Shown here: positions 628 through 18,737 of the stretch, piece by piece
Layout of the letters: each line of letters opens with the position of its first letter
Numbering within the stretch: position 1 is the stretch's first letter
Virus record (IMG/VR): IMGVR_UViG_3300030060_002172
Span: 3,965 to 28,140 of that record
Source: a virus
Direction: 5' to 3' (one strand)
DNA length: 24,176 nucleotides
Translations under genes and position numbers: made by a program
The notes under the pieces: generated by a model
Database searches by the model: none
What the model saw: the letters and a program-made list of their open reading frames with translations, nothing else
What the model was told of the DNA's origin: nothing

Positions 628-819
628 TTATTTTGTAAGTAAAGTGAAGATAACATATCCCATGCCTGTAATCAAGGCACCAACAGACACCAATAGAATA
701 CTTTCTATTCTATGTATTTGTTTTTCAATAGAATGAATTTTATCATGAGTTTGTTTTTGCATAATTCTGCAAAGTTTCTCATGAGAATCAATTCTTTGTA
801 ATGCGTTATCTTTACTCAT
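628..819 (-). CDS. Small single-TM protein, holin-like
   Basis: A 63-aa protein: a charged, probably helical or coiled-coil N-terminal half (about residues 1-40, rich in K, H, E and Q) followed by one hydrophobic segment (about 41-60, ILLVSVGALITGMGYVIFTL) and a terminal Lys. This layout resembles XhlA-type haemolysin/holin-associated proteins, which have an N-terminal cytoplasmic helix and a C-terminal TM helix. It lies directly upstream of the M15 endolysin, which supports a holin or holin-accessory role. The ATG overlaps the stop of the giant upstream gene (TAATG), and a GGGGAG Shine-Dalgarno-like stretch precedes it inside that gene's last codons. No sequence motif proves the function; the call rests on size, topology and position. 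Confidence 0.55.
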   Translation of the reverse strand: MSKDNALQRIDSHEKLCRIMQKQTHDKIHSIEKQIHRIESILLVSVGALITGMGYVIFTLLTK

Positions 820-3800
820 TAAGTTCTCCCCGCAATTATTTTTTCTGCTGGTGATAGTAATGCTTCTTCTGTTCGTGTCAAGTTAGTTTGTGGGTTTTTT
901 GCCATTGCCATTTGTGCATTATTTACTACTGGCATAGGTGTTTTAGCCAATGGTTGACCTTTGTTTTGTGCTCCCATTATTCCAGGTGCATTCATCATTG
1001 GTTGTTCAGCAATTATGTATCGCTCTTCATCAATTCTAAAATCTTTATTAAGTTTTTGTCTTTGTAATTTTTTTTCTATTTTTTCAAGTTTTCTTCTTAT
1101 TCTTCTATTTAATGGATTTTTAATTTTATATTTATCAGATAATCTTTCATAAGCTTCTTCCATACCTTCTGTAATACCCAAAGGTTTAAATTTATTTCTT
1201 GATATTAATCTAAATAAAGAACCTTGACCCCTGTCTTCAAAAATTTGTCTAATTTTCTTTTTGCTGTAACCTAAAACTCTGGCTGCATCATATTGTCTTC
1301 TCATTTTATTAAAAGTTTCTAATCTTTGTTTGTTAGCAAAGATATATTGTTTAATAATTTTGTTATCATCTTCAACTGGATCACCTGTTAGAGTGCCAGC
1401 GTAAATTAATTTTCTTTCATCTCTTTCTGCCTTCATAAAGTTTCCTATAAATATTTCCATTGATCTCTCAATATCTAATGGTGCTTTTCTTAAACCAATC
1501 AATCCTAACAATTCATCTGTAACTTCATATTCAGTTCCTTTAATTGTTGTTCCTCTAATTGCACTATATAATCTTTGCATTTGAACTTGAGAACCTGGAG
1601 TATATAATTTAGCTAAATGTTTAAACGTTTTAAATATTTTATCACCTTCAGAATCTCTTTCGTTCCAGATCCGTGATCCTTGTTTCGTTTGTCCGCCTCT
1701 TGCATAAATATCTAGTACACCACCAATCCAAATAGATTCTGATACAAATGGCTCTACTAGTCTAACAAAAGCTTTAACTAATCCCATGGTCATAGCAGGA
1801 ATAACTGGTCTGTCTTCATCTCTATTTAATTCTGTAAACATAGCTTGAATAGGATTAGTCACTGTGTCGTAGAAAAATGCTCTACTAAAATCTATGTATT
1901 TATATTTACCATCTTCATAGACTGGTATTAATGTAGAGTCTTCCGAAAACCATGGAACGAATTCTCTTAACGCCATTAATTTATCTTTAGTAAATCCATA
2001 AGCCTGCATTCCTCCATACACAGCAGCTGGTCCAATAATACCTACAGTTGTTGCAAAACCTGCCGCTCTTTCCCAACCTATTCTTTTTAATATTGGATCT
2101 TTAATTTCTCTTTTAGCTCCTGCCATAATATTATTAGAAGTTCTAATAATTTCTGCAGGCCATGATACGAAGTTTCCAAGTGGGGATCTTCTAGATGCTT
2201 GAACTAATTCAGAAACGTAAGCATAGTTAGGTAACATTTCTCTTACGTTTTTAGTCGCCATTTTCATTATTTCTAATCTATTTGGCAATTGATTTTTAGT
2301 TATTGTACCTGCTTTTAAGGCAGCTTGATACGCTCTGTTAATTTTAAAATCTTCTGCAAAAAAATTAAATATTTTCCATACATCATCTTCAGCAATGTAC
2401 ATGTCTTGCGCACCTTTTAAAAATCTTTTAGTTTTACTACCAAGTTTGTTCCACATCTTTTGAAGGAATCCTGTTTTAGCTGTGTCTTCAATTAAGCCAA
2501 TAACATCTCTATAGATAGCACTAGCATTAACCATACCTTCATCTAATAAAAATCTATATAAAGATTGACCAGCTTCTCCTCTTAATGCATCTGAATAATC
2601 ACTAATATTTTTATATTCTAACATTGGTCTTGCACCTGGTTTGTTTCGATATAAAATTTGTGGTTGCAAAGTATTAAAAGCAGATTTTATAGATTTTAAA
2701 ACAAACAAAGGATTAGTTAAAGCTAAAGATATATTACCTAAAGATACAGTTGTAACTGCACCTGATGCAAAGTTTCTTGAGTGAGTAAACGGACCACCTA
2801 CTGTTTTACCAGCTTGAATTAATCCTTTAGGCACCATAACCGCGTATTGATACGCAGCATTTTTGGTAATGCTTCCTAAACTATTTAATGCACCAAACTT
2901 TAAACCTTGAGCAATAGCTTCAGTTGTATACATATTATTGATAGGAACTGTGTATGCTTTTTCACCCAGTTTTTGTGGGAGCTGTAATCCTCTGCTGGCA
3001 TCTACTAATCTTTCATCTAAACCAAATGCTTTTCTAGCACTATTATAAGTTGGATATACAATTCCTTTTTCACCACGTTTAATCATATCATCAGACGCAG
3101 TTTTAATTACATTATAAAATCTATCTCTTGCTGCAATTTCTGCTAGGTCCGTGGTTACATTAGCTATAATTGAATTAGCATTTTTATATTCTCCAAATAA
3201 TTTTTTAAATGCATCTAAATCTTTTTTAGTTTGAATTAATCCACCTTTCTTATCTGGTTTAAATTTACCAGCACCTGTAATGTTATCTGCTATACTTTTA
3301 GTAATTAAAGCTTTTTCTTTAGCAAAGTCTGCTGCTTCATATTTAAATATTGGTGCTCCTGTGTTTGGATCTAATTGAACATTTTTAACAATGTCTTTTA
3401 CAATTAACATTGCATCATCTGGATTTAATGTTTTACGATTAGCTCTTGCACTTCTTACAAATATATCAGCTACTTCTTTTATAACATCATTTGATGGTGC
3501 GTATTCTGAAACTGGTCTTAGACCATTATCTTTAAAAATTTTGTATTCAGTAGATAAAGTATCTCTGATTCTTTCTTTCATTATGTTAACAAACTCTTTA
3601 GTTGATACATTTAAATTTTTACCTTTAACAACTACATTTAAAAAATCAGCCCATGAACTATGAACCTTAGATAATTCGTTCACTAATGCACTTGCGTCTG
3701 CTTTAGAAACTTTTAACTTATCGGTTAAGGCAGAATAAAAATCATCAATCATATTTTTATCAAAACCTTTAACAATTACTTTGTTTCCGCTAACACCTAG

Positions 3801-5279
3801 CTTGCCTTTTAAAATAGTGTTAACAATTAAATCCGATAATTCGTTAGTCATGCCTGATTTATCAGCAGCGCTTTGTGAGTATTTAGAAATTCTTTTTATA
3901 ATTTCATCAAAGTTTCTTAGATAATCTGTAGCCATTAAATTAGCTGAAGATTTTTTTCCTTCTAATCTTTGAATAGCTTGAAATTCTTCTTCAGGAAAAG
4001 GTCCTCTAGATCTTAAAGGTCTTGCTACAAATTTATCTACAAACTTATCAAACTTAGAGGCATTTGCAGCTCTTTTCATAACACCACTTGTAATACTTTT
4101 AGCTACTTTACTACCGCCTACGATAGCTGGAATAATTGGAAAGCCCATTTCTCCTGCAAACTTAAGTTTGTTGTATAGCATTCTTGTTGCATCTTCTTGG
4201 GCTGACTCTCTACCATCCCTGTCTAAAGCTGTAAGTTCTCCTTCATCAAAAAATAAATCTCCAAAAGTTCCAATGTTTTCTGCATCATAAACTACACCAC
4301 CAGTCACTGCTCCACCTACAAAAACACCAGCAAATTTTTGTTTGCCTGATAACCTGTTCCATTTAGAAACGTCCTGTGCTAATTTATATGCTTCTTTGTT
4401 TCCTGCGGTCTTTATATATTTACCTTGTCTCAAACCACTAATAGCTTTGTTGTACATTTTAAATGCCGTAGTAGTTAGTTGATCCGCATACTTTCCAGCA
4501 CTTTTCCAACCACCATACAACTGTACAAGTGTTTCAGTTATTTTTCCAACTGCGGTCTCTCTTGCTTTTTCTTCTGCATATTTTTCAACTTGACCAATAA
4601 AAGTTTGTTCCCACCAATTTTCTAATTGAGCTACTCTTCCTTTATCAACAGGTAAATTTCTATCATCGGCCCAATCCATAACCATTGCTCCAAGATTAGC
4701 AAAACCTTTCGGAATTTTAATAGAACCAGATAACACAGCTCCATAAATAGATTCAGTTATACCTACTTCACTTTCAAAAGGAATTCCTTTAGACGTTACT
4801 TTCATTTTACCAGTTGAACCGGCTAAAACCATTTGATCTGTAAAAGGTTGTTTTTCTGGTTTGTCACCATACTTAGATTCTAATGTAGGTCCTTTGCCTT
4901 CGTCCCATACGGTATCGTATGTTTCAAAATCTAATTTAGCACCGGATAACATTCCTTTCATAGAAGCTATTTCATCTCTATAGTATTGTTTGTTTTCTTG
5001 TTCGGTGTAGTTTCTTGGATCTCTAAAGTCTGGATCTTGTTTTAATTTTTCATCATAGTAAGCATCATCACCATATTTTTTTCTGTATTTAAATTCTCTA
5101 ACAATTTGACTAACAGAATCTAAAGCATTTTTAATGTTGCTATTCTTTCTAATATTAGCTTCACTCTTTTCGAGCTCTTCATCGTAAGTTAACTGTTTAT
5201 TAACAGCTTCTACTACTTCTTCTTTTTTTAGTTTTTTTTCGTCGTCAACTAATTTACGAGGGTCAAAACCAAATGGCAT
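819..5279 (-). CDS. Giant internal virion (ejection) protein, 1486 aa
   Basis: By far the largest gene here. It is lysine-rich and mostly helical, without recognisable enzymatic motifs; I see no lysozyme or transglycosylase signature. Several Gly/Ala-rich hydrophobic stretches lie inside charged sequence: near residues 318-331 (FAGVFVGGAVTGGV), 380-400, 895-920, and 1098-1115 (AAGFATTVGIIGPAAVYGGM). They could insert into or cross a membrane. The C-terminus (from about 1410) is rich in Met, Asn, Gln and Pro. Large helical proteins with membrane-active patches at the end of a podovirus structural operon are usually internal core proteins ejected with DNA (compare the role of T7 gp15/gp16). A strong AGGAGG at 5284-5289, overlapping the upstream stop codon, lies four bases before the ATG. 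The role is inferred from size, composition and order. Confidence 0.6.
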   Translation of the reverse strand: MPFGFDPRKLVDDEKKLKKEEVVEAVNKQLTYDEELEKSEANIRKNSNIKNALDSVSQIVREFKYRKKYGDDAYYDEKLKQDPDFRDPRNYTEQENKQYYRDEIASMKGMLSGAKLDFETYDTVWDEGKGPTLESKYGDKPEKQPFTDQMVLAGSTGKMKVTSKGIPFESEVGITESIYGAVLSGSIKIPKGFANLGAMVMDWADDRNLPVDKGRVAQLENWWEQTFIGQVEKYAEEKARETAVGKITETLVQLYGGWKSAGKYADQLTTTAFKMYNKAISGLRQGKYIKTAGNKEAYKLAQDVSKWNRLSGKQKFAGVFVGGAVTGGVVYDAENIGTFGDLFFDEGELTALDRDGRESAQEDATRMLYNKLKFAGEMGFPIIPAIVGGSKVAKSITSGVMKRAANASKFDKFVDKFVARPLRSRGPFPEEEFQAIQRLEGKKSSANLMATDYLRNFDEIIKRISKYSQSAADKSGMTNELSDLIVNTILKGKLGVSGNKVIVKGFDKNMIDDFYSALTDKLKVSKADASALVNELSKVHSSWADFLNVVVKGKNLNVSTKEFVNIMKERIRDTLSTEYKIFKDNGLRPVSEYAPSNDVIKEVADIFVRSARANRKTLNPDDAMLIVKDIVKNVQLDPNTGAPIFKYEAADFAKEKALITKSIADNITGAGKFKPDKKGGLIQTKKDLDAFKKLFGEYKNANSIIANVTTDLAEIAARDRFYNVIKTASDDMIKRGEKGIVYPTYNSARKAFGLDERLVDASRGLQLPQKLGEKAYTVPINNMYTTEAIAQGLKFGALNSLGSITKNAAYQYAVMVPKGLIQAGKTVGGPFTHSRNFASGAVTTVSLGNISLALTNPLFVLKSIKSAFNTLQPQILYRNKPGARPMLEYKNISDYSDALRGEAGQSLYRFLLDEGMVNASAIYRDVIGLIEDTAKTGFLQKMWNKLGSKTKRFLKGAQDMYIAEDDVWKIFNFFAEDFKINRAYQAALKAGTITKNQLPNRLEIMKMATKNVREMLPNYAYVSELVQASRRSPLGNFVSWPAEIIRTSNNIMAGAKREIKDPILKRIGWERAAGFATTVGIIGPAAVYGGMQAYGFTKDKLMALREFVPWFSEDSTLIPVYEDGKYKYIDFSRAFFYDTVTNPIQAMFTELNRDEDRPVIPAMTMGLVKAFVRLVEPFVSESIWIGGVLDIYARGGQTKQGSRIWNERDSEGDKIFKTFKHLAKLYTPGSQVQMQRLYSAIRGTTIKGTEYEVTDELLGLIGLRKAPLDIERSMEIFIGNFMKAERDERKLIYAGTLTGDPVEDDNKIIKQYIFANKQRLETFNKMRRQYDAARVLGYSKKKIRQIFEDRGQGSLFRLISRNKFKPLGITEGMEEAYERLSDKYKIKNPLNRRIRRKLEKIEKKLQRQKLNKDFRIDEERYIIAEQPMMNAPGIMGAQNKGQPLAKTPMPVVNNAQMAMAKNPQTNLTRTEEALLSPAEKIIAGRT

Positions 5280-10201: not shown

Positions 10202-10365
10202 TAATCTAAAAAGAAACTTCTAGCTTCTATCTCCTGTTTTAATTCTTGTTGAAACGATGTATTTAATTTTTCTAACACAGCATCTAAATCTCTAATTAAA
10301 GATGATGCTACATCTTCTTGGTATTCTTTACTAGCTCGTGTTAAAGTTTGTACTATTTTAGCCAT
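10201..10365 (-). CDS. Small helical protein, 54 aa
   Basis: Found by translating the gap between the nozzle-like gene and the 111-aa gene. The product begins MAKIVQTLTRASKEYQED, continues with VASSLIRDLDAVLEKLN and ends EIEARSFFLD before TAA; it is charged and very probably one long amphipathic helix. A strong AGGAGG (10375-10380) sits nine bases before the ATG, within the last codons of the nozzle-like gene, and both ends overlap neighbours as TAATG. The ribosome-binding site and the two exact overlaps are good evidence for a real gene. Function unknown. Helical proteins of this size between tail genes may act as small chaperones or coiled-coil virion parts. Confidence 0.8.
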   Translation of the reverse strand: MAKIVQTLTRASKEYQEDVASSLIRDLDAVLEKLNTSFQQELKQEIEARSFFLD

Positions 10366-12584
10366 TATCTTCTTCCTCCTGCATGTATGTCTAATCTAAA
10401 AGTTCCTAGTTTCCAATTAGCATCAACTGCAGTATTAGAAACAGTAAGCGCAACAGCTCTAGCCCTAGCTCTAGTATCAATTTTTGTAGTGCTTGATGTA
10501 ATTGTAAAAGGACCTAGTGATGAACTTGCAGAACTATCATTTGGATAATTTCTTAAATCTAATTGAACAATAGTATTGCCAGTTTGAGAAATAAAATCAG
10601 GAACAACTCTACTAACTCTCATTATAAATTCTCCATCTCCTCTAAGATCCGCAAGACTAGTAGCTGCTCCTCTCATTGTTTTTTGAGTTATGTCATAATC
10701 TCCAGAAGTTATGTTAGCAGGAATAGCACTTGTAGTTCCTATTTTAACTTGGTTAACTCCTGTTTCATGTTCATAATAATACGTAACTCCTTCAGTGTTT
10801 CCAGTAACATCAAAAGATGAATCAGTACCAGCATCATAATAGGTTGCATGAGGAAGACCAAATACAGCAGAATCTATCCATGTAGTTCGTGGAAATAATG
10901 AATTTGCATTTGTATACCAAATTGGTCTTTGAGATGTAGAATCTAAATAACTATATAGAACACATCTATTAATCACATTAGAATTAGCTTGTGGATAAAA
11001 CCACATAACTTCACCAAACAAATTATTAATTCCGCAAAATATTAATTGACCAGATGTGGTGTTTAAATCATCATAAACATAGTCCTCTACTAAACAATCC
11101 ATAGATTCTAGTTTACCAGTGTATCTAAAGAAACCATTTTCTGACATCCAGTACGCAGCACCATCAACTTCAGCTGCTGCATTTTTACCAATAAGTCCGC
11201 AGTTAGTTCCTACTTGTTCATAAGCAAAAACAAAATCCCCACCCACAAAACGCATAGTAAATAATGAGGTGTCCGTCCAAACATATATTGCATTTCTACC
11301 TAGTTTAGCTCCAATGATCCGTGATCCAGCGGCCAGTCTTTGTGTACCAGCTGTATTGGTTATTGTTGGTGCCCAAGTATTTATATCTTCTTGATTTGAA
11401 AATCTTAAAAACATATCATCTTGACTTGTTGTATCACCTATTGTTGTTTCTGTTCCAAATAAAACTAAGTGACGATCGGGAGTTGATACTAACATATCAC
11501 GTGACGCTGTTGGTGCGCCAGTCACAACAGTTGCTCGAGTAGCAGTAGCATTAGCAGCATTTGAATCCCATTCAAAAACAGGTCCATTACAAATTAAAGC
11601 AATTAAATTAGAACCTAAATTATCTAATGACCATAAACCAGGTTCAGCTACTTTATCAGATGTAGATGCAGCTTGGCCCCATGCAGCATAACCACTAGTA
11701 TTAGTTACTGTTGCTCCGTTACTGTGCGAAGCATTTGTAGTTCCTCTAACATTTCTAGTTATTCCAGTAAAACTTGTAGACGTTATTCCTGTGTAAGAAA
11801 TTTCTTCAGTTCCCACTTGAATATAATTTGTTCCTGTGCTTGGAAAACCTGTAGTACTAGCTACATTAATTGTAGTTCCTGAACCACCAGTTCCAAATGC
11901 GTCAGCACCTAATGCTCCATTTAAAGTTGTTGTTTGTGGGTTAGTAACTGTACCGCCCCATTGAGATATACCATAACCATAAACTCCGACTTGTTCAGCA
12001 GGTCCTACGTGGTAGTATCTAAAAAAAGTAATACCTCCAGAAGTTGATGCTCCAGCTCCACCTTCATTACTGTCCATTGTAATAGTAATAGTGGTTGTTG
12101 TTGGAACAGTGGTAACCATAAATTTTTTATCACAAAAATCTGAAGCGCCAAAATTAGATCCTGTAATTGAACTAAACGTAGATGTGTCTCCAAATAAAAT
12201 AATATCTCCCGCTTGAAAATTGTGAGCCGAAGAAAAAGTTATTGTAACAGTTGGTTGTCCATTAGTTGTGCTAAATGCATTTGTAAGAGCTGTGCCTGAT
12301 GGATTTACTAAAGGATGAATATCATAATAAACACCTCCTGAGTATGCATATAAAATTCTATTAGTACCTAGAATAGCATACTTAATACCTTCTTTGTTAA
12401 CCATGTGGTGTAAAGCTCTTGTAGCTCCTGTAAGTTTTTTATCTCCTAGAGAAGACCAACCACCTATTTTTTCAGGTGTTCCATATCTAAATCGAACGTT
12501 TTCTCCGCCAGTCCATTGGGACTCGGCACCTGTAGGGGTTACTTGTTTATTGAAACCGGGTAAAAAAGCAATTTTTTGTAGCAT
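10365..12584 (-). CDS. Short-tail nozzle-like structural protein, 739 aa
   Basis: The N-terminus, FLPGFNKQVTPTGAESQW then VRFRYGTPEKIGGWSSLG, is of a type I know from podovirus tail proteins that act like P22 gp10 or the T7 gp12 nozzle: beta-propeller proteins at the distal tail tube. YAILGTNRILYAYSGG (about 70-85) and LVLFGTE (about 375) look like propeller blades. Inserted sections include a region at about 100-190 resembling the FCCH-like insert often seen here (TVTITFSSAHNFQAGD), followed by YGYGISQWGG, and a beta module at about 205-275 (TGFPSTGTNYIQVGTEEISY, GITRNVRG). It has its own promoter-like sequence and a start-codon hairpin, and is the first structural gene after the oxygenase cassette. 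The start is ATG with only a weak GAG upstream. Nozzle function is inferred from similarity in memory. Confidence 0.65.
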   Translation of the reverse strand: MLQKIAFLPGFNKQVTPTGAESQWTGGENVRFRYGTPEKIGGWSSLGDKKLTGATRALHHMVNKEGIKYAILGTNRILYAYSGGVYYDIHPLVNPSGTALTNAFSTTNGQPTVTITFSSAHNFQAGDIILFGDTSTFSSITGSNFGASDFCDKKFMVTTVPTTTTITITMDSNEGGAGASTSGGITFFRYYHVGPAEQVGVYGYGISQWGGTVTNPQTTTLNGALGADAFGTGGSGTTINVASTTGFPSTGTNYIQVGTEEISYTGITSTSFTGITRNVRGTTNASHSNGATVTNTSGYAAWGQAASTSDKVAEPGLWSLDNLGSNLIALICNGPVFEWDSNAANATATRATVVTGAPTASRDMLVSTPDRHLVLFGTETTIGDTTSQDDMFLRFSNQEDINTWAPTITNTAGTQRLAAGSRIIGAKLGRNAIYVWTDTSLFTMRFVGGDFVFAYEQVGTNCGLIGKNAAAEVDGAAYWMSENGFFRYTGKLESMDCLVEDYVYDDLNTTSGQLIFCGINNLFGEVMWFYPQANSNVINRCVLYSYLDSTSQRPIWYTNANSLFPRTTWIDSAVFGLPHATYYDAGTDSSFDVTGNTEGVTYYYEHETGVNQVKIGTTSAIPANITSGDYDITQKTMRGAATSLADLRGDGEFIMRVSRVVPDFISQTGNTIVQLDLRNYPNDSSASSSLGPFTITSSTTKIDTRARARAVALTVSNTAVDANWKLGTFRLDIHAGGRR

Positions 12585-12635: not shown

Positions 12636-13115
12636 CTAAAAATAATTAAAATTTATAATATATCTTTTTTCAAAACTAGAAGTTAATATAGGTCTATGTA
12701 ATGTATTGCATTTAAATATTATCATTTTATTTTCTTCTGCTTTTATGGGTTTTATTTTATTATTAATTTTAAACTCTGTGCCCCCATCTGTAGTATTTAA
12801 ATATAATATACTTGTCCAATTATTATAATTATAATCTGTATGCCATTGAGCTTTTTTATTATTAAACAATAAAGAAAAAAATAAATTTGCTCGTGCTTCT
12901 ATTAAAGCTGTTGGTTTTAATATTTTATATATATCTTGAGTGCACTCATAATTTAATGTAGAGTTAATTTGATTGTTGTAAAAGAAAGAATGACAAAAAT
13001 AACCACCTTTTATTTCAGTATTGTCTTTATAAAACCATGGGAAATAATCGCCTGTAATTAATTCTTTAACTTTTATAAATTTATTTTGTGGTAAAAAATT
13101 TTTAATAATTTTCAT
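12636..13115 (-). CDS. 2OG-Fe(II) oxygenase-like protein, 159 aa
   Basis: The last gene of the cassette. It is a compact double-stranded beta-helix oxygenase with all key residues: His92 and Asp94 in WHTDYNYNNW, the distal iron ligand His140 in TLHRP, and Arg151 in KRYIINFNYF for the 2-oxoglutarate carboxylate. TSILYLNTTDGGTEF after the HxD is the usual core strand. At about 160 residues it has little beyond the catalytic core. It is clearly paralogous to the 156-aa protein encoded at 13956-14426 (shared FxWFxxxNT, HxFF, INS, ARxNL, HTD and NKIKxIK). Its ATG abuts the upstream TAA with no gap, and no Shine-Dalgarno is visible. The substrate is unknown; phage relatives are thought to hydroxylate amino-acid side chains, but other small-molecule substrates are possible. 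Confidence 0.85.
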   Translation of the reverse strand: MKIIKNFLPQNKFIKVKELITGDYFPWFYKDNTEIKGGYFCHSFFYNNQINSTLNYECTQDIYKILKPTALIEARANLFFSLLFNNKKAQWHTDYNYNNWTSILYLNTTDGGTEFKINNKIKPIKAEENKMIIFKCNTLHRPILTSSFEKRYIINFNYF

Positions 13116-13634
13116 TTAACAACCATTGTCTTTTAAATTAAAACTAATGCCGTATTTAATTTTTTGAGATCTATGTTTATCAGCTTTATGAAGTAGAAAA
13201 GGAGAAAAAATAGCAAACGCCCCTGGCTCTGGTTTAACGATTTGATTAATATCATTAAAATCTAATGTTTGTTCATGACTGTTTAAATATATTACACCCG
13301 ACCATTCGTTTGACCTATGATTATGTTCTACAGTTTTAGAACCATAGGAACAACTTACACCCCATGATTCAACTAAAGAATATGATGGAAAAGTAAAATG
13401 GTCGTCAACATAATCTATCATTTTATCTAATATTTTTAAAAACTCAGGATCGTTATTAAAGAAAGTAAAACTTGTCATCTTATCTTTTACGTTTGTTTGA
13501 TAATTTTTATTATCTTGTCTTTCACAACCTATTTTTATTTTATCTATAAAGTATTTACAATTAATGTTTAGTTTTCCTTTTACAAAAAAATAATCTAAAG
13601 ATACCTTTTTTTCAATATGTTTGTGTATAATCAT
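13116..13634 (-). CDS. 2OG-Fe(II) oxygenase-like protein, HxH variant, 172 aa
   Basis: I place the start at the ATG at 13634, which forms an ATGA overlap with the upstream stop; a TTG at 13649 would add five residues. The C-terminal half has the cupin-like oxygenase layout: VEHNHRSNEWSGVIYLN (His104-Asn-His106 in this numbering), a GAFAIFSPFLLHKAD segment with distal His149, and KYGISFN. This is the pattern of the TIGR02466-like putative 2OG-Fe(II) oxygenases, which carry HxH where most members have HxD. Lys160 stands where an Arg usually binds 2-oxoglutarate. Iron binding by three His or by water is possible, and loss of activity cannot be excluded. The substrate is unknown. Confidence 0.7.
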   Translation of the reverse strand: MIIHKHIEKKVSLDYFFVKGKLNINCKYFIDKIKIGCERQDNKNYQTNVKDKMTSFTFFNNDPEFLKILDKMIDYVDDHFTFPSYSLVESWGVSCSYGSKTVEHNHRSNEWSGVIYLNSHEQTLDFNDINQIVKPEPGAFAIFSPFLLHKADKHRSQKIKYGISFNLKDNGC

Positions 13635-13963
13635 AATACAATGTTCCAATTTAATTTAGATAATATTTCTTTTATATTAATAATTTTTAATTTATTAATT
13701 TTTATATAAGAATGTAATTCTTCTACGTCTATAAGTAGATATTTATTTTTTAATTTATAAACCATTTTGTCTGCTTTTGTATTAATGTGACTTTTCTTTC
13801 CTACACCTTCTTTAAAAGAAGAAAGGTTTCTTGTATCAAATTTTAAAAACCTATTGCTTTTATTTTTAATAATTCCTGAAACATCCCACAATTCTTTTTC
13901 TTGTTGTTTTTTTGTAGCATATGTAATGTCAATTAAATACTTATTAATAAAATCTTTATTCAT
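13631..13963 (-). CDS. Unidentified 110-aa protein inside the oxygenase cassette
   Basis: I do not recognise this gene. The product is very Lys-rich with an alternating pattern: KSNRFLKFDTRNLSSFKEG (about 35-53), then VGKKSHINTKADKMVY, then KYLLIDVEELHSYIKIN (about 74-90) and the C-terminal LNWNIVL. It has no HxD...H signature and is too short for the oxygenase fold, so it is not a ninth member. The strand-rich core with Asp65 and IDVEEL faintly recalls small PD-(D/E)XK-like or restriction-fold proteins, but the match is too weak to call. It overlaps the upstream gene by eight bases and the downstream gene by four, so it is transcribed with the cassette. It might be a partner, adaptor or substrate-binding protein for the enzymes. 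Confidence 0.75.
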   Translation of the reverse strand: MNKDFINKYLIDITYATKKQQEKELWDVSGIIKNKSNRFLKFDTRNLSSFKEGVGKKSHINTKADKMVYKLKNKYLLIDVEELHSYIKINKLKIINIKEILSKLNWNIVL

Positions 13964-14426
13964 AGTTTAAATTTAAAATTAATCTATACTCTTTGTCTGT
14001 ATGGCAAACTGCTCTATGTTTTAAATTACTATTAAAAGTAACTGCCGTGTTTTTAATTGATTTAATTTTGTTTTTATTTTCAAATTCGGTATATCCATTA
14101 TTAGTATTTAAATATAATATGGTAGTTTTCATGTTTAAAAAATCTGTGTGAAAGCCAGACTTAATTTGTTTAGATTGTTTTAAACAAAGGTTAACTCGTG
14201 CATGCACTAAATTTTTTAATTTAAGTCTAAAAAGAACTGGCTCTAATAATTGAAAATAATCAGAATTAATGCGGCCATCTTTAAAAAAAGTATGTATAAA
14301 ATAAGGGCCATCTTCGACACCTGTTCCAGTATTGTTTCTAAAAAACCAACCAAAATTATTTTCAAGTAGTTGGTCAAAAGGTGCTAAAGCTTGTTTACTT
14401 AAAAAATTTTTCTTTGTTTCAATCAT
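13956..14426 (-). CDS. 2OG-Fe(II) oxygenase-like protein, 156 aa
   Basis: A minimal oxygenase core with a complete active site: His93 and Asp95 in SGFHTDF, distal His137 in NLKHRAV, and Arg148 in KEYRLILNLNY for the 2-oxoglutarate carboxylate. The strand TTILYLNTNNGYTEFE follows the HxD. I know this type (GxHTD, YLNTNNGYTEF) from cyanophages and other marine phages, where its substrate is unknown. It is paralogous to the product of 12636-13115, with matching motifs along the whole length, so the pair arose by duplication or repeated acquisition of one family. Its start overlaps the upstream stop (TAATG) and no ribosome-binding site is visible, so translation probably depends on the upstream gene. 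Confidence 0.88.
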   Translation of the reverse strand: MIETKKNFLSKQALAPFDQLLENNFGWFFRNNTGTGVEDGPYFIHTFFKDGRINSDYFQLLEPVLFRLKLKNLVHARVNLCLKQSKQIKSGFHTDFLNMKTTILYLNTNNGYTEFENKNKIKSIKNTAVTFNSNLKHRAVCHTDKEYRLILNLNYE

Positions 14427-14959
14427 TATTTAAAAGTAAAAACTATGACCACTCTCATTCCTTTTTTAGGATAAGTTAAATAATGATTATAGTTTTCAAA
14501 ATACAGTCCTCTATATTTTTTGGTTAATACTTCTTTAAATTTTTTACCTTTTTTTTCTAAAACTGTTTTAGCATCAGGATTATCGGTGCAATAAACTAAT
14601 AAAGATTTATGATTAAACTTATGATCCACATGACTTAATGTTCTTTTAAACCCATTATTAAATGATAGATTAACAGCACATCTCAATATCCTTGTGCAAG
14701 AAATATTATTTTTTTCTATAAAATCATTTAATATTTCTAGTAAAGGAACGGCCTCAGTTGAGTTAACTGATTTAAAATTAGGGTTTCTATTTTCTGGTCT
14801 TACCACAGCCACATGAGCTAAAAATTCGTGGTTGTCATTACCAATAGAATTATTGGTTATATAATATGGATAATTATTTGCTAAAACAAATTCATTAATA
14901 TATTTTTTATTTTCATCTGATAAAAAATTATCATCTACAATAACTTTACCTTCTTTCAT
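14426..14959 (-). CDS. 2OG-Fe(II) oxygenase-like protein, 177 aa
   Basis: The active-site residues are in place: His110 and Asp112 in LSHVDHKFNHKSLLVYCTDN, distal His159 in YNHYLTYP and Arg169 in GMRVVIVFTF. Between them lies a Lys-rich insertion (about 131-150) instead of the usual GG-E/T-F strand, so this is a different subfamily from the other cassette members. The N-terminal half (VIVDDNFLSDENKKYINEF) has the typical lead-in of phage oxygenases. It overlaps the upstream gene by 14 bases and ends as TAATG into the next. AGGA lies about 11 bases before the ATG. Function beyond a probable hydroxylase is not known. Confidence 0.8.
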   Translation of the reverse strand: MKEGKVIVDDNFLSDENKKYINEFVLANNYPYYITNNSIGNDNHEFLAHVAVVRPENRNPNFKSVNSTEAVPLLEILNDFIEKNNISCTRILRCAVNLSFNNGFKRTLSHVDHKFNHKSLLVYCTDNPDAKTVLEKKGKKFKEVLTKKYRGLYFENYNHYLTYPKKGMRVVIVFTFK

Positions 14960-15539
14960 AATTTAACCATCCTGTCAGTATGTATTTGTGTTGTTTGTTT
15001 GTTATAACTCCTCTATGGGTATGGGTCCAATCTGAAGGCCACAACAAAGTTAATCCTTTTTCTGCTTCAACTTTTAATTTTTGATGATAAAATTCTGTTC
15101 CACCATTCTTAACGTCATTTAAATAAGTCATAAAAACCATAACTCTAGTTGTTTTTTGTATTACTAATCTTTCTGCATGCCAAATTTTAAAACCCTCACC
15201 AGGTTTGTAATGTTGAAAATTAATACCTTCAGTATCTCCAAATTTTTTATTATTTTTAAACAATGGGTAAATTTTTGAATACTCTGTTACACCTTGATCT
15301 ATGTATTTTATATATTTTTTGTATAAGTCAAAAGCAGTTATTACAGTAAAATCTTGATCAGAAGATTTTTTATAACTATCATTTTTAATAGGTTTACCTT
15401 CTTCAGACAAACAACCTCCGTCTCTAATTAAATCAGAATTTTCTTTATGCCATTTCATTACATCATCGCAAAATTTTTTAGGTATGTACCAGCCATAAAC
15501 AAAACTACTATACGGAAATTTTAAATTATCTGTGGACAT
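14946..15539 (-). CDS. 2OG-Fe(II) oxygenase-like protein, HxE variant, 197 aa
   Basis: I use the ATG at 15539 (MSTDNLKFPYSS); an upstream TTG at 15548 would add three residues. The core reads KIWHAERLVIQKTTRVMVFM followed by TYLNDVKNGGTEF, KGLTLLWPSDWTHTHRG and KYILTGWLNY. The first iron pair is His121-x-Glu123 instead of HxD, the distal His is in WTHTH (173 or 175), and Lys185 takes the place of the Arg that normally holds 2-oxoglutarate. I recognise this as a prolyl-4-hydroxylase-like family common in cyanophages and marine phages ('YLNDV-GGTEF', 'WTHTHRG', 'KYIxTGW'); as far as I recall the HxE and Lys are family features rather than damage. The substrate is unknown. Confidence 0.85.
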   Translation of the reverse strand: MSTDNLKFPYSSFVYGWYIPKKFCDDVMKWHKENSDLIRDGGCLSEEGKPIKNDSYKKSSDQDFTVITAFDLYKKYIKYIDQGVTEYSKIYPLFKNNKKFGDTEGINFQHYKPGEGFKIWHAERLVIQKTTRVMVFMTYLNDVKNGGTEFYHQKLKVEAEKGLTLLWPSDWTHTHRGVITNKQHKYILTGWLNYERR

Positions 15540-16101
15540 TGAAATCAATATTTAAAGTTTGTCTAATTCCTTTTATTTGCGGATAAGTACCATGCCAAAT
15601 CCAACAAGGAAATATAAAAAAATCATTTGTTCTAGGATACACAGAATTAAATAATAGTCTATTGTCTTTATTGTTTATAAAATAATAAAACTCTCCTCTG
15701 TCCATTAACTTTGGATCATTTAAATCTTTAGGTGGAGCGCTTAAATACATAACTGTTGAAATAGTGTTTTCTGGATTATTCTTATGTCGATGAACAGCAT
15801 GAAAACTATTAACATGACCAATAACAGTCCATGCATTATTTAAAGAAAGAGAAGGATTGTCTCCATTTCTTTTTTCAAATTCTTCAGTAATTTTTTGAAT
15901 ACAGTTTTCTAATATAAATTGAAAACTTTGTTCTTGTTTAAAAATATTTTTTAAATTATATTGTCTTGAATTTCTACCTCTAGTGCTTAATTTTTTTAAA
16001 TCTGTTCTAGGCAAATTTTTAATCCATTGATTAACTAGTTCTTTAGTTTTAGACACTTGTAAAATTTTTGTTTGTATTAACCAGTCTTCGTAAAATCTCA
16101 T
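15526..16101 (-). CDS. 2OG-Fe(II) oxygenase-like protein, HxH variant, 191 aa
   Basis: The C-terminal two thirds match the TIGR02466-like putative 2OG-Fe(II) oxygenases: NNAWTVIGHVNSFHAVHRHK, then STVMYLSAPP, GEFYYF, and DFFIFPCWIWHGTYP with RQTLNIDFN. Candidate ligands are His104-x-His106, distal His170 and Arg180. As in its family, the acidic ligand of HxD is replaced by His. The N-terminal third is helical and basic. The ATG overlaps the upstream stop as ATGA, and AGGA lies eight bases upstream inside the previous gene. The next gene starts within its last codons. It differs from the other HxH member (13116-13634) in keeping the 2-oxoglutarate Arg. Confidence 0.78.
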   Translation of the reverse strand: MRFYEDWLIQTKILQVSKTKELVNQWIKNLPRTDLKKLSTRGRNSRQYNLKNIFKQEQSFQFILENCIQKITEEFEKRNGDNPSLSLNNAWTVIGHVNSFHAVHRHKNNPENTISTVMYLSAPPKDLNDPKLMDRGEFYYFINNKDNRLLFNSVYPRTNDFFIFPCWIWHGTYPQIKGIRQTLNIDFNVHR

Positions 16102-16709
16102 TTTTTTAATCCTAAACTTGTGTGTGCAGGTAATCCTAAGTGTAACCTATTATCATATGCCTTCATATTTTTTTCTTTTAATTGTTTAACGGTATTGTAA
16201 TGTAAAAAAATTTGAACACATTCTGCTTCTTGTAATGGTTCTCTCCAATGTGGAATACTTCCATCGTAAATTAATAAATCTCCTGGTTCTAATATAAATT
16301 GTTTTCCATCTACAAACATAGGCCACTCATTTCCTCCAACAGGTAAAGTAACGGAAAGTTTGCATGCATTTCTATCAGTGTGTTTTTTTAAAACATTTCC
16401 TTTTTTATATATTCTTACATAACTATAATTCTCTACCACTCTTCCAAAATCTGTTTCTTTTTGAACAATGCTTCTTACTTGTTTTAATAAAGTTTCACTA
16501 ACTATATCTGCATACATAGTGTAATCTGTCCCCAAAACTTGTAAATCTTCGGTTTGACCAAATAAATGTTCTAAGTAAGGCGGTATAATTTTTTCTTTTA
16601 AAAGAGTTCTAAACACTCTTCTTTTTAATAAAAAATATTCATGAATAAATTGTAGAACATTTTTTGAAATAACGTTTTTAATTAGTTTATATTTAAATTC
16701 TTTATTCAT
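16098..16709 (-). CDS. 2OG-Fe(II) oxygenase-like protein, 203 aa
   Basis: Core motifs: NYSYVRIYKKGNVLKKHTDR gives His110-Thr-Asp112, CKLSVTLPVGG is the following strand, LEPGDLLIYDGSIPHWREP holds distal His154 and Arg156, and VQIFLHYNT is the last core strand. I know this family (KKHTDR...EPGDLLIYDG...HWRE...FLHY) from marine phages and some bacteria. The usual C-terminal Arg for 2-oxoglutarate is absent at the expected place, so Arg156 or another residue may serve. The N-terminal third is helical, and the C-terminus (NRLHLGLPAHTSLG) extends past the core. The start overlaps the upstream TAA (TAATG) without a ribosome-binding site. Enzymatic activity is likely, substrate unknown. Confidence 0.85.
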   Translation of the reverse strand: MNKEFKYKLIKNVISKNVLQFIHEYFLLKRRVFRTLLKEKIIPPYLEHLFGQTEDLQVLGTDYTMYADIVSETLLKQVRSIVQKETDFGRVVENYSYVRIYKKGNVLKKHTDRNACKLSVTLPVGGNEWPMFVDGKQFILEPGDLLIYDGSIPHWREPLQEAECVQIFLHYNTVKQLKEKNMKAYDNRLHLGLPAHTSLGLKK

Positions 16710-17329
16710 TATTTAAATGGATACCCCAATGCCCAGCCTACTAAAGAATTTCTTTCTCCTTTTGTAATGGCAGCTACCTTGTGTTTAACAAAAGAAGGAA
16801 AAATAATTATTGAACCTTTTTCTTTTATTTCTAGACACTCTACAACATTGTTTATTGGAGAGTTTAAAAATTCAAAATAAAACTCACCTCCTTTAAAATC
16901 TTTAGGATCAGATAAGTTTATACTAAAAGATAGTTTTCTATAAGTGCCGTGAATATTAGGATTGTGTGGGGTGTCGTATGTACTAGTTAAATTATCAAGG
17001 TGCCAATCGTAGTGTTGATTTTTTTTATATTTTGTAAATTGTAAGTCTTCAAAATAATTAATATCAAAATTCCAATTAGCCATTTTATTTGCTTCTTCTA
17101 TATAAGGACTAATTACATCATAAAGCCATTGATCATTTAACCAACACACATCAGAATCTCTTAATTTTAATTTGTGTGTAAATTCATTTTCTCCAAGAAC
17201 TGTTTCATTTTTATTTTTAGAAACAACTCCTTTTTTTAATTTTTGTTTTTTTGCTAAATCTTTTACTGATTTGCAAAAACGATCATCAAAAACATTTTTA
17301 AAGTAGTAGTAATAATAATTTAAGTACAT
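16709..17329 (-). CDS. PKHD-type 2OG-Fe(II) hydroxylase-like protein, 206 aa
   Basis: The first gene of the cassette and its most classical member. QHYDWHLDN gives His110-x-Asp112, RKLSFSINLSDPKDFKGGEF is the PKHD/prolyl-4-hydroxylase core, and GSIIIFPSFVKHKV with GERNSLVGWALG provides distal His183 and the 2-oxoglutarate ligand Arg193. All catalytic residues are present. PKHD-type enzymes hydroxylate protein side chains in the few characterised cases. The N-terminus has an unusual run of tyrosines (LNYYYYYF). It starts with ATG behind a promoter-like sequence with a leader of only about a dozen bases and no Shine-Dalgarno, which suggests it is the first gene of a separate transcript. It ends as TAATG into the next gene. 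Confidence 0.92.
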   Translation of the reverse strand: MYLNYYYYYFKNVFDDRFCKSVKDLAKKQKLKKGVVSKNKNETVLGENEFTHKLKLRDSDVCWLNDQWLYDVISPYIEEANKMANWNFDINYFEDLQFTKYKKNQHYDWHLDNLTSTYDTPHNPNIHGTYRKLSFSINLSDPKDFKGGEFYFEFLNSPINNVVECLEIKEKGSIIIFPSFVKHKVAAITKGERNSLVGWALGYPFK

Positions 17330-17378: not shown

Positions 17379-17828
17379 TTACTCCCAGCTAAAAGTAGAA
17401 GGATTCCAGACAACTTGATCTTCATTTGCATCAAAAGAAACCCATTGTTGATTTGCTTCGTCCCATGCGGGAGCACATGAATAGTCGGGAATTAAAGGAT
17501 CTGTAAAATTGTCAGGTCTTTCTATTGGTGCTTCCCATTTCCAATTGGTGTTATTTAAGGACCAACTGTCAAAAGGTTTAACTTCAATAAATACATTATT
17601 AGTTGGATCATAGTAACCACCCAGAGGTTCAGCACCATTTGCTCTAAAAGAGTTATCTATAGAAAATTGTTTTACAATAGCAGAATCATTTTTAAGTAAA
17701 TTTGTTTTTACCCAATTTTCTGCTTCAATTGATTGATCGCCGCCGTTAGCATCCACATCTGCTTGGTCTACAGCCAATATGTTTAATACTTTGTTTTCTG
17801 AATCTAATGTGGCAAAATAAGCTATCAT
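17379..17828 (-). CDS. Conserved 149-aa protein linked to tail fibres
   Basis: Residues in order: MIAYFATLDSENKVLNILAV (a strand pair with NKV), a helix with ENWVKTNLL, FRANGAEPLGGYYDPTNNVF, then KPFDSWSLNNTNWKWEAPIE and a Trp-rich C-terminus (WDEANQQWVSF, VVWNPSTFSWE). I recognise the pattern 'R-N-A-x-x-G-x-x-YD...F...P-F-x-SW-x-L...W-x-W-E-A-P' from many cyanophages and marine phages, where it is annotated as a hypothetical or tail-associated protein. Trp-containing repeats after PFxSW resemble carbohydrate-contacting or fibre-capping segments. It directly follows the glycine-rich fibre gene and ends the tail-fibre module before the oxygenase cassette. It may be a fibre chaperone or a small virion protein; sequence alone does not decide. 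Confidence 0.6.
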   Translation of the reverse strand: MIAYFATLDSENKVLNILAVDQADVDANGGDQSIEAENWVKTNLLKNDSAIVKQFSIDNSFRANGAEPLGGYYDPTNNVFIEVKPFDSWSLNNTNWKWEAPIERPDNFTDPLIPDYSCAPAWDEANQQWVSFDANEDQVVWNPSTFSWE

Positions 17829-17834
17829 TTTTTA

Positions 17835-18737
17835 TTAACTTATGGTTAAGTTTCCTCCAACATTAAATACAGCCACTCTATCACCACCATCTGTACTAAT
17901 TGAATTAGAACCAGGAGATACAGATCCACTTAATTTATTACTAAATCTTAAAATTATTTTTCCATTTCCACCTGAACCGCCGCCTCCGAGTCGGTTTGAT
18001 CCACCGCCTCCACCTTGGCCATCAGTTCCGCTTTGAGCGCCTGAGTTTCTCATTCCAGCACCGCCGCCACCGTTTCCACCTGAACCATTAGGTGATGCTG
18101 GGTAACCGTGTGTGCTTCCACCTCCGCCACCACCAAAAGTTTGTGATGATCCATTAATACTTGATGCAGTTCCATTTCCTCCAGGTCCTGCGCTGTCGGT
18201 CATTGAACTATTTGATCCGTCATTAGTCGTTCCGCCACCACCAGCAGATGGATTAGCGTTTGATCCAGGAGAGTCTCCGCCATCGCCGCCTTGTTGTCCT
18301 GTACCGCCAGAAGCACTACCGTTTCCGCCGCCGCCTCCGCCGCCGCATCCACCTTCACTTCCTGCTTGACTTTGACCGTTTCCAGTGCCACCACCATTAC
18401 CGGTAACAGTTGAAAATGCAGGAGAACTAATAGCACTATCTCCACCTTGGCCATTTCCTCCACTACCTATATTGACAGTAATAGAATCTCCTCCCGTAAT
18501 TTGAGAAGCGCTTCCACTAGGATAGTTTGTTGTTAGACCCCCAGCACCGCCTCCGCCGCCAGATTGACTAGAACATCCGCCACCGCCACCTAAAACTAAA
18601 TAATATAGCTCAGCTTTAGCTTTACCTGCTCCAGAACCAAATCCTAAAATTTGATATCCAAAAGATTTTCCTTTTCGATTGTTTTTATTTTTTAAACCTT
18701 TGCCTACTTCACTAGTAAGTTCGTTTAATTTTCTCAT
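17835..18737 (-). CDS. Glycine-rich tail fibre / adhesin-like protein, 300 aa
   Basis: After a Lys/Asn-rich N-terminus (1-40) comes LYYLVLGGGGGC, about 200 residues dominated by Gly with Ser, Asn and Thr (runs such as GGCGGGGGGGNGSASGG), and then GGGGSGGNGKIILRFS. This is the layout of the phage glycine-rich domain found on fibre tips, and it resembles the polyglycine sandwich of T-even gp38 adhesins. The C-terminal 35 residues (STDGGDRVAVFNVGGNLTIS) look like a beta cap. A strong AAGGAG lies before the ATG. It follows the 411-aa fibre gene by 11 bases, so it is probably the distal, host-contacting part or a second fibre. Its codons are far more GC-rich than the oxygenase genes. Receptor specificity cannot be told. 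Confidence 0.75.
   Translation of the reverse strand: MRKLNELTSEVGKGLKNKNNRKGKSFGYQILGFGSGAGKAKAELYYLVLGGGGGCSSQSGGGGGAGGLTTNYPSGSASQITGGDSITVNIGSGGNGQGGDSAISSPAFSTVTGNGGGTGNGQSQAGSEGGCGGGGGGGNGSASGGTGQQGGDGGDSPGSNANPSAGGGGTTNDGSNSSMTDSAGPGGNGTASSINGSSQTFGGGGGGSTHGYPASPNGSGGNGGGGAGMRNSGAQSGTDGQGGGGGSNRLGGGGSGGNGKIILRFSNKLSGSVSPGSNSISTDGGDRVAVFNVGGNLTIS

Follow-up and report, generated by a model that had tools for sequence, protein, structure and literature searches.

The stretch of viral DNA analyzed here (hereafter, the window) spans 24,176 nucleotides, corresponding to bases 3965–28140 of the 28.5-kb IMG/VR virus record IMGVR_UViG_3300030060_002172, and contains a cassette of 9 consecutive minus-strand open reading frames (genes A to I, positions 17329–12636), 8 of which (A to F, H, and I) are assigned, by family match and motif, to the 2-oxoglutarate (2OG)- and Fe(II)-dependent oxygenases of the double-stranded beta-helix type (Table 1). 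The window belongs to a relative of the HTVC023P-type pelagiphages: its tail genes are homologous to and syntenic with those of HTVC023P, HTVC027P, and 023Pt_psg01, and its nozzle protein is 46% to 49% identical to the counterparts in these 3 phages, in which the gene order is the same. The window phage being a metagenomic contig, we infer from the relatives that its host is Pelagibacter. On the minus strand, a tail protein gene is followed by fiber genes, the gene for a glycine-rich fiber (gly300), the gene for w149, genes A to I, and the nozzle gene. All 9 genes overlap or abut, consistent with the gap-free layout described in the original prediction for this locus. Across most of the cassette (12636–17329), the GC content is 23% to 28%, compared to 33% to 46% in the flanking structural genes, and no promoter or terminator signals above chance were found at the cassette borders. 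No further oxygenases were found elsewhere in the 28.5-kb record.

The iron-ligand motif is present in all 8 predicted oxygenases. Together with the Pfam or PHROG matches obtained for each of them, this bears out the earlier count of 8 oxygenases among 9 consecutive genes, with gene G excluded. The curated Pfam cut-off was passed by A, D, and I (PF13640) and by C and H (PF13759); the Pfam match of gene F fell below it (E = 0.0012), genes B and E gave no Pfam match over the cut-off, and these 3 were assigned through phrog_2954 (B) and phrog_274 (E and F) and profile links. The nearest sequence match of gene A in the PDB is the PKHD-type hydroxylase 3dkq. In total, the 8 proteins fall into 4 PHROG families, namely, 61 (A and D), 2954 (B), 81 (C and H), and 274 (E, F, and I), rather than the 6 or more subfamilies anticipated. 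The accompanying notion of a collection, as opposed to one amplified gene, is upheld, because genes F and I (37.6% identity over 157 aa) are the sole pair in the window alignable over the full length. Genes D and H probably start at internal ATG codons, at positions 15539 and 13634, respectively.

Table 1. Genes of the oxygenase cassette and its neighbors in the window.
Feature	Product	Position	Strand	Evidence	Ligand motif
Gene A	206 aa, PKHD/PF13640-type 2OG-Fe(II) oxygenase	16709..17329	-	PF13640 48.7 bits (cut-off 27); phrog_61 9e-39	H110-x-D112 (HLD), H183, R193
Gene B	203 aa, 2OG-Fe(II) oxygenase	16098..16709	-	phrog_2954 1e-33; invariant ligands, AlphaFold model	H110-x-D112, H154; 2OG anchor ambiguous
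Gene C	191 aa, PF13759/TIGR02466-type 2OG-Fe(II) oxygenase	15526..16101	-	PF13759 34.4 bits (cut-off 27); phrog_81 7e-17	H104-x-H106, H170, R180
Gene D	200 aa, 2OG-Fe(II) oxygenase	14946..15548	-	PF13640 35.3 bits; phrog_61 3e-34	H124-x-E126, H176/178, K188
Gene E	177 aa, 2OG-Fe(II) oxygenase	14426..14959	-	phrog_274 6e-24; AlphaFold model	H110-x-D112, H159, R169
Gene F	156 aa, 2OG-Fe(II) oxygenase	13956..14426	-	phrog_274 2e-37, 129.7 bits	H93-x-D95, H137, R148
Gene G	110 aa, non-oxygenase small protein	13631..13963	-	no family match over any cut-off	
Gene H	177 aa, PF13759-type 2OG-Fe(II) oxygenase	13116..13649	-	PF13759 35.7 bits; phrog_81 1e-14	H109-x-H111, H154, K165
Gene I	159 aa, 2OG-Fe(II) oxygenase	12636..13115	-	PF13640 30 bits; phrog_274 1e-35	H92-x-D94, H140, R151
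Nozzle gene	nozzle/stabilization protein, downstream cassette border	10365..12584	-	phrog_3287 3e-96; best record match 023Pt_psg01, coverage 100%, identity 46%	
w149	small Trp-rich protein beside fiber, constant cassette neighbor	17379..17828	-	phrog_7759 1e-20	
gly300	glycine-rich fiber/adhesin	17835..18737	-	phrog_2295 1e-22	

Two of these families carry other labels in phage annotation, the family of gene B being called ferrochelatase and that of genes E, F, and I DNA endonuclease V (T4 denV). Genes B and E, the 2 with no Pfam oxygenase match above or close to the cut-off, were folded with AlphaFold from alignments comprising 44 and 45 sequences, respectively, structure prediction being a check that the original prediction had proposed. 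Both yielded confident models of double-stranded beta-helix oxygenases (mean pLDDT, the predicted local distance difference test, of 93.9 for B and 93.7 for E), with the remaining 6 assignments resting on sequence families. In the alignment of 44 sequences for the family of gene B, H110, D112, H154, R156, Q166, and H170 are invariant, and the His and Arg residues of the motif are invariant or near-invariant in the family of genes E, F, and I. The top Foldseek match of the gene B model is the Pseudomonas putida prolyl hydroxylase P4H (4j25, E = 6e-9), and the matches listed are 2OG oxygenases and cupins throughout; VIA-align Z scores to 2OG oxygenases are 14 to 16, and the VIA-align listing contains no ferrochelatase, an absence that carries no evidential weight. 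The ferrochelatase label was rejected, as gene B gave no PF00762 match at E-values up to 10 and both its model and its invariant ligands are those of an oxygenase. Similarly, endonuclease V was absent from the results of Pfam and PDB profile searches for the family of E, F, and I, which instead brought up oxygenases (PHD2, E = 0.0016), and the top Foldseek match of the gene E model is the HIF prolyl hydroxylase PHD2 (E = 4e-6). Judged by the predicted models and conserved ligands, both families are oxygenases, and these 2 widespread phage annotation labels seem to need correcting. Because both labels fail, runs of oxygenase genes that seem interrupted in annotation are contiguous. For phage proteins, the labels of PHROGs 2954, 3531, and 274 appear to be erroneous, and they have been propagated to RefSeq phage records and to papers on auxiliary metabolic genes; Syn9 gp52, annotated as "minor coat protein" and called by oxygenase profiles, may be a third such case. 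The structural neighbors of B and E are mostly peptide or protein hydroxylases (P4H, PHD2, and AspH), with AlkB-type and natural-product oxygenases matching as well. The predicted enzymes share the fold and the HxD…H(…R/K) center with P. putida P4H, PHD2/EGLN1, and PKHD-type hydroxylases, but sequence identity to the prolyl and peptidyl hydroxylases in structural alignments is 8% to 20%.

The oxygenases are linked to the adhesin module, that is, the glycine-rich fiber and w149, and this linkage is well supported. Of the 43 nozzle-anchored loci for which 4 kb or more of upstream sequence was available, 39 carry 1 to 11 oxygenases, which are present in all 29 loci with a glycine-rich fiber or w149 and in 10 of the 14 loci without (Fisher p = 0.008). 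Four loci are empty, and in the 2 of these that were read (L035 and L052), concanavalin/LamG-like proteins occupy the place of the cassette. On the nozzle side, 236 oxygenases were counted in 705 kb (3.35 per 10 kb), approximately 33 times the density in a control set of 80 terminase-anchored loci from this phage group (7 oxygenases in 702 kb; 0.10 per 10 kb). In the complete genomes of HTVC023P, HTVC027P, and 023Pt_psg01, all profile-detected oxygenases (5, 3, and 5, respectively) lie within the fiber–nozzle interval. Scattering of the genes away from the fibers in relatives, which the original prediction had named as evidence against itself, is not seen in the window's phage group. The succession of glycine-rich fiber, w149, and oxygenases recurs in the podophage HTVC033P and the myophage HTVC008M, which together with HTVC023P represent 3 pelagiphage lineages. 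In all 3 of these phages, a gly300 homolog precedes the cassette and a w149 homolog stands immediately in front of it. In the cyanomyophages Syn9, Syn10, and S-RIM44, fiber genes are followed by 2 halogenase genes and then by oxygenases; here, the glycine-rich fiber matches are weak (3e-7 and 2e-4 in Syn9; 2e-11 in S-RIM44), and neither Syn9 nor the part of S-RIM44 that was covered yielded a w149 homolog. A scan anchored on w149 uncovered oxygenases in 58 of 76 new loci, within 3 genes in 56 of them. Since the statistics are post hoc and the loci non-independent, we rely on the effect size and on the recurrence across phage lineages. Several contigs without an HTVC023P-type nozzle within reach (L163, L165, L167, and L180, and the w149 loci L203, L210, L213, and L233) also contain fiber and oxygenase genes, some with a halogenase; further phage lineages may thus carry the cassette.

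The size and composition of the cassette vary considerably, and rearranged forms of it occur in hundreds of fragments of related viruses. The 43 nozzle-anchored loci contain 0 to 11 oxygenases (median 5), and 7 of them, including the window, contain at least 8; these counts are lower bounds, as the profiles missed oxygenase-like genes at L009:7365-7829 and L010:3547-4095, and they include 9 of 263 members without the iron-ligand motif, which is intact in the other 254. Across whole genomes, the totals are 13 in cyanophage Syn9 and approximately 19 in pelagiphage HTVC008M. The expectation that 1 to 3 such genes are usual and 8 in a row striking was not borne out: the window lies at the high end of a variable set. 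The order of the families differs between nozzle-anchored loci, and for 260 of 260 oxygenases from this set the closest relative resides in the cassette of another phage. In situ amplification was rejected, since none of the 260 has its best match within its own locus, an outcome that the near-identical phages in the set favor. Many cassettes open with a divergent oxygenase-like protein of approximately 167 aa devoid of the iron-ligand motif (HTVC023P 42548-43051, 023Pt_psg01 42207-42710, L009:6223-6732, L055:2879-3382, and L065:4085-4588), possibly a pseudoenzyme or scaffold. In 6 loci (L004, L010, L012, L020, L033, and L044) and in HTVC008M (56402-59681), the fiber and nozzle genes are on one strand and the whole oxygenase block is on the other. 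An inverted block is also found in HTVC027P, along with a tail-collar-type fiber, and the layout is similar in L010, L020, L033, and L044.

The window cassette lacks a halogenase, but in some of the other cassettes, Trp halogenases (PF04820, E-values down to 1e-108) and NodU-type carbamoyltransferases (PF16861/PF02543) are encoded between the oxygenases. When the scan was anchored on halogenases, oxygenases were detected in 79 of 80 loci, directly adjacent in 68, and a fiber or w149 gene was located no more than 6 genes upstream in 48 of the 51 halogenase loci with enough upstream sequence. Seven of 13 carbamoyltransferase loci belong to such cassettes; the other 6 (L191–L196), a separate lineage with approximately 40% identity, contain no oxygenases, indicating that the oxygenase profiles do not fire everywhere. 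The nearest PDB sequence to one cassette halogenase (L074:4023-5525) is VirX1 of cyanophage Syn10 (6QGM, E = 5e-88). Based on the roles of annotated Syn9 homologs, the Syn10 halogenase genes sit between the fiber genes and the oxygenase run, and the VirX1 gene is probably CPUG_00131, judging from its length (530 versus 531 aa). In w149 or the fiber, halogenase-bearing and halogenase-free loci differ weakly in Asp, Asn, and Cys content, with no correction applied for multiple testing or relatedness.

Taken together, the linkage to the adhesin module, the set of chemistries, and the fold neighbors suggest an optional tailoring cassette that modifies tail-tip proteins, a reading to which we give roughly even chances. 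The 8 non-redundant hydroxylases would probably be expressed together, late and alongside the tail genes, and would hydroxylate tail-tip proteins on their side chains; the most likely substrates would be the glycine-rich fiber, which may resemble the gp38 adhesins of T-even-like phages, and/or the Trp-rich w149. In relatives whose cassettes also encode flavin halogenases or NodU-type carbamoyltransferases, these enzymes would go on to halogenate or carbamoylate the resulting product. Phages reshuffle the repertoire as they would an adhesin, plausibly because binding, stability, or evasion at the host surface can be tuned in this way. The multi-step modification of virion or surface molecules envisaged in the original prediction on the basis of the fiber–nozzle position gains strong support, on comparative grounds, from the linkage in 3 pelagiphage lineages and, with a weaker fiber match, in cyanomyophages. 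A broader version of the proposal, in which phages of several lineages apply a modular mix of hydroxylases, halogenases, and carbamoyltransferases to their own receptor-binding tip, diversifying the adhesin chemically beyond its sequence, so that the natural substrate of VirX1 would be a tail-tip protein, is held more tentatively. If the cassette does tailor the adhesin, it would provide a chemical route to variation in phage host range, which we did not find described in the searchable literature, and the native substrate of VirX1 would become directly testable.

Several observations weigh against tail-tip modification. In 18 of the 76 w149 loci, some of which are truncated contigs, there are no oxygenases; the adhesin module thus does not require them, which makes them an accessory. 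Large myophages also hold oxygenase relatives among replication genes; in Syn9, 9 of 13 oxygenases belong to the fiber-side run, and the remaining 4 are located elsewhere. The inversion of the block relative to the fibers in one sub-lineage means that shared transcription is not universal. Loci that have a halogenase and those that lack one are alike in the Trp content of w149 and of the fiber, giving no sign of Trp enrichment as a halogenase target. The likeness to protein hydroxylase folds does not establish the substrate class, given that AlkB and natural-product oxygenases match too. Finally, the loci are related by descent, and hence the p-values overstate the evidence.

The link to the adhesin type would be accounted for equally well if the enzymes modified a host surface molecule, such as lipopolysaccharide, a glycan, or an outer-membrane protein, for instance, in superinfection exclusion, and traveled with the adhesin because of a shared receptor. 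NodU-family carbamoyltransferases can act on sugars, and in HTVC023P and HTVC027P glycosyltransferases are encoded a few genes downstream; however, the cassette is devoid of transport or lipid- or glycan-binding domains, and the nearest structures are mostly peptide or protein hydroxylases, which makes this explanation unlikely in our view. We are more doubtful still that the cassette produces a tailored peptide or small molecule in the manner of a natural-product cluster or one for ribosomally synthesized and post-translationally modified peptides, with w149 or G as the precursor. Hydroxylases together with a flavin halogenase and a carbamoyltransferase are indeed the enzymes that make up a tailoring pathway, and the natural-product oxygenases OkaE and SnoN/SnoK are among the structural matches of gene B, but no leader-peptide recognition domain, protease, exporter, nonribosomal peptide synthetase, or polyketide synthase gene was seen in the cassettes, and w149 adjoins the fiber gene and also occurs without oxygenases.

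Alteration of the 2OG/nitrogen status or iron use of the host, or repair or modification of nucleic acids, has been proposed for cyanophage 2OG oxygenases (PMC3037559, PMC2984593, PMC12753301), and some myophage copies adjoin uvsX, uvsY, and helicase genes. For the present locus, such roles seem improbable: one enzyme would suffice to drain 2OG, no DNA-metabolism genes are linked to the locus, and the oxygenase density by the tail module is 33 times that by the terminase. We judge equally improbable that the oxygenases merely accumulate, with little adaptive value, at a recombination hot spot between the fiber and nozzle genes, as the low GC content, mosaic order, and variable gene number of the cassettes might imply, because the ligand motifs are intact in 254 of 263 members and the same enzyme class recurs with the same companion enzymes in other lineages, which is not expected of a random hot spot. 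Least probable of all is that the enzymes target host translation or further proteins of the host, akin to the hydroxylation of EF-Tu by Pseudomonas P4H, for, despite the Foldseek matches of gene B to P. putida P4H, free (4j25) and with EF-Tu (4iw3), it would leave at least 8 different enzymes, the fiber linkage, and the co-occurring halogenases unexplained.

Few auxiliary genes are as common in marine phages as those for 2OG oxygenases, whose roles have hitherto been guessed (nitrogen signaling, DNA repair, iron). In HTVC023P-type pelagiphages, Wittmers et al. (2022, PMC9599517) described 8 non-orthologous types of 2OG oxygenases encoded near each other in varying order, yet "not adjacent" and often beside 1 or 2 "ferrochelatases," which were read as iron-chelating. 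Our observations concern the same phage group and the same kind of gene, but here the supposed iron-chelating partner turns out to be another oxygenase, the run is contiguous and linked to the adhesin module, and its membership extends to halogenases and carbamoyltransferases. T4-like cyanophages carry genes for 2OG-Fe(II) oxygenases, a PrnA halogenase, and a carbamoyltransferase (Sullivan et al. 2010, PMC3037559), that is, the same enzyme classes, and in Syn9, Syn10, and S-RIM44 the 2 halogenase genes and the oxygenase run come after the fiber genes; earlier readings invoked nitrogen signaling, DNA repair, and antibiotic protection rather than fiber linkage, and some of the myophage copies are scattered. 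For VirX1, the table of a review gives no gene cluster and non-natural test substrates only (PMC8407142), and for HTVC027P gp73, the main text of the corresponding paper names no temporal class (PMC12753301). Thus, the oxygenases of HTVC023P-type pelagiphages and the halogenases and carbamoyltransferases of cyanophages were already known; the adhesin-linked, contiguous, and shuffled tailoring cassette and the 2 label corrections are new in that they were not found in the open-access literature. No earlier report of oxygenase–fiber linkage was found there either, with most subscription papers falling outside the scope of the search.

Among the remaining genes, no PDB relative of gly300 was found by sequence search. 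Homologs of gene G recur in other cassettes (L009:8522-8860, L018:6930-7253, L042:7146-7478, and L068:6368-6697), often directly before the nozzle gene, as well as in many halogenase loci, and members of this family of approximately 110 aa share an end resembling DVEELHxYL…LxWxI. Lastly, positions 819–5279 of the window encode a probable internal virion protein of 1,486 aa that has no PHROG match at E = 0.01.

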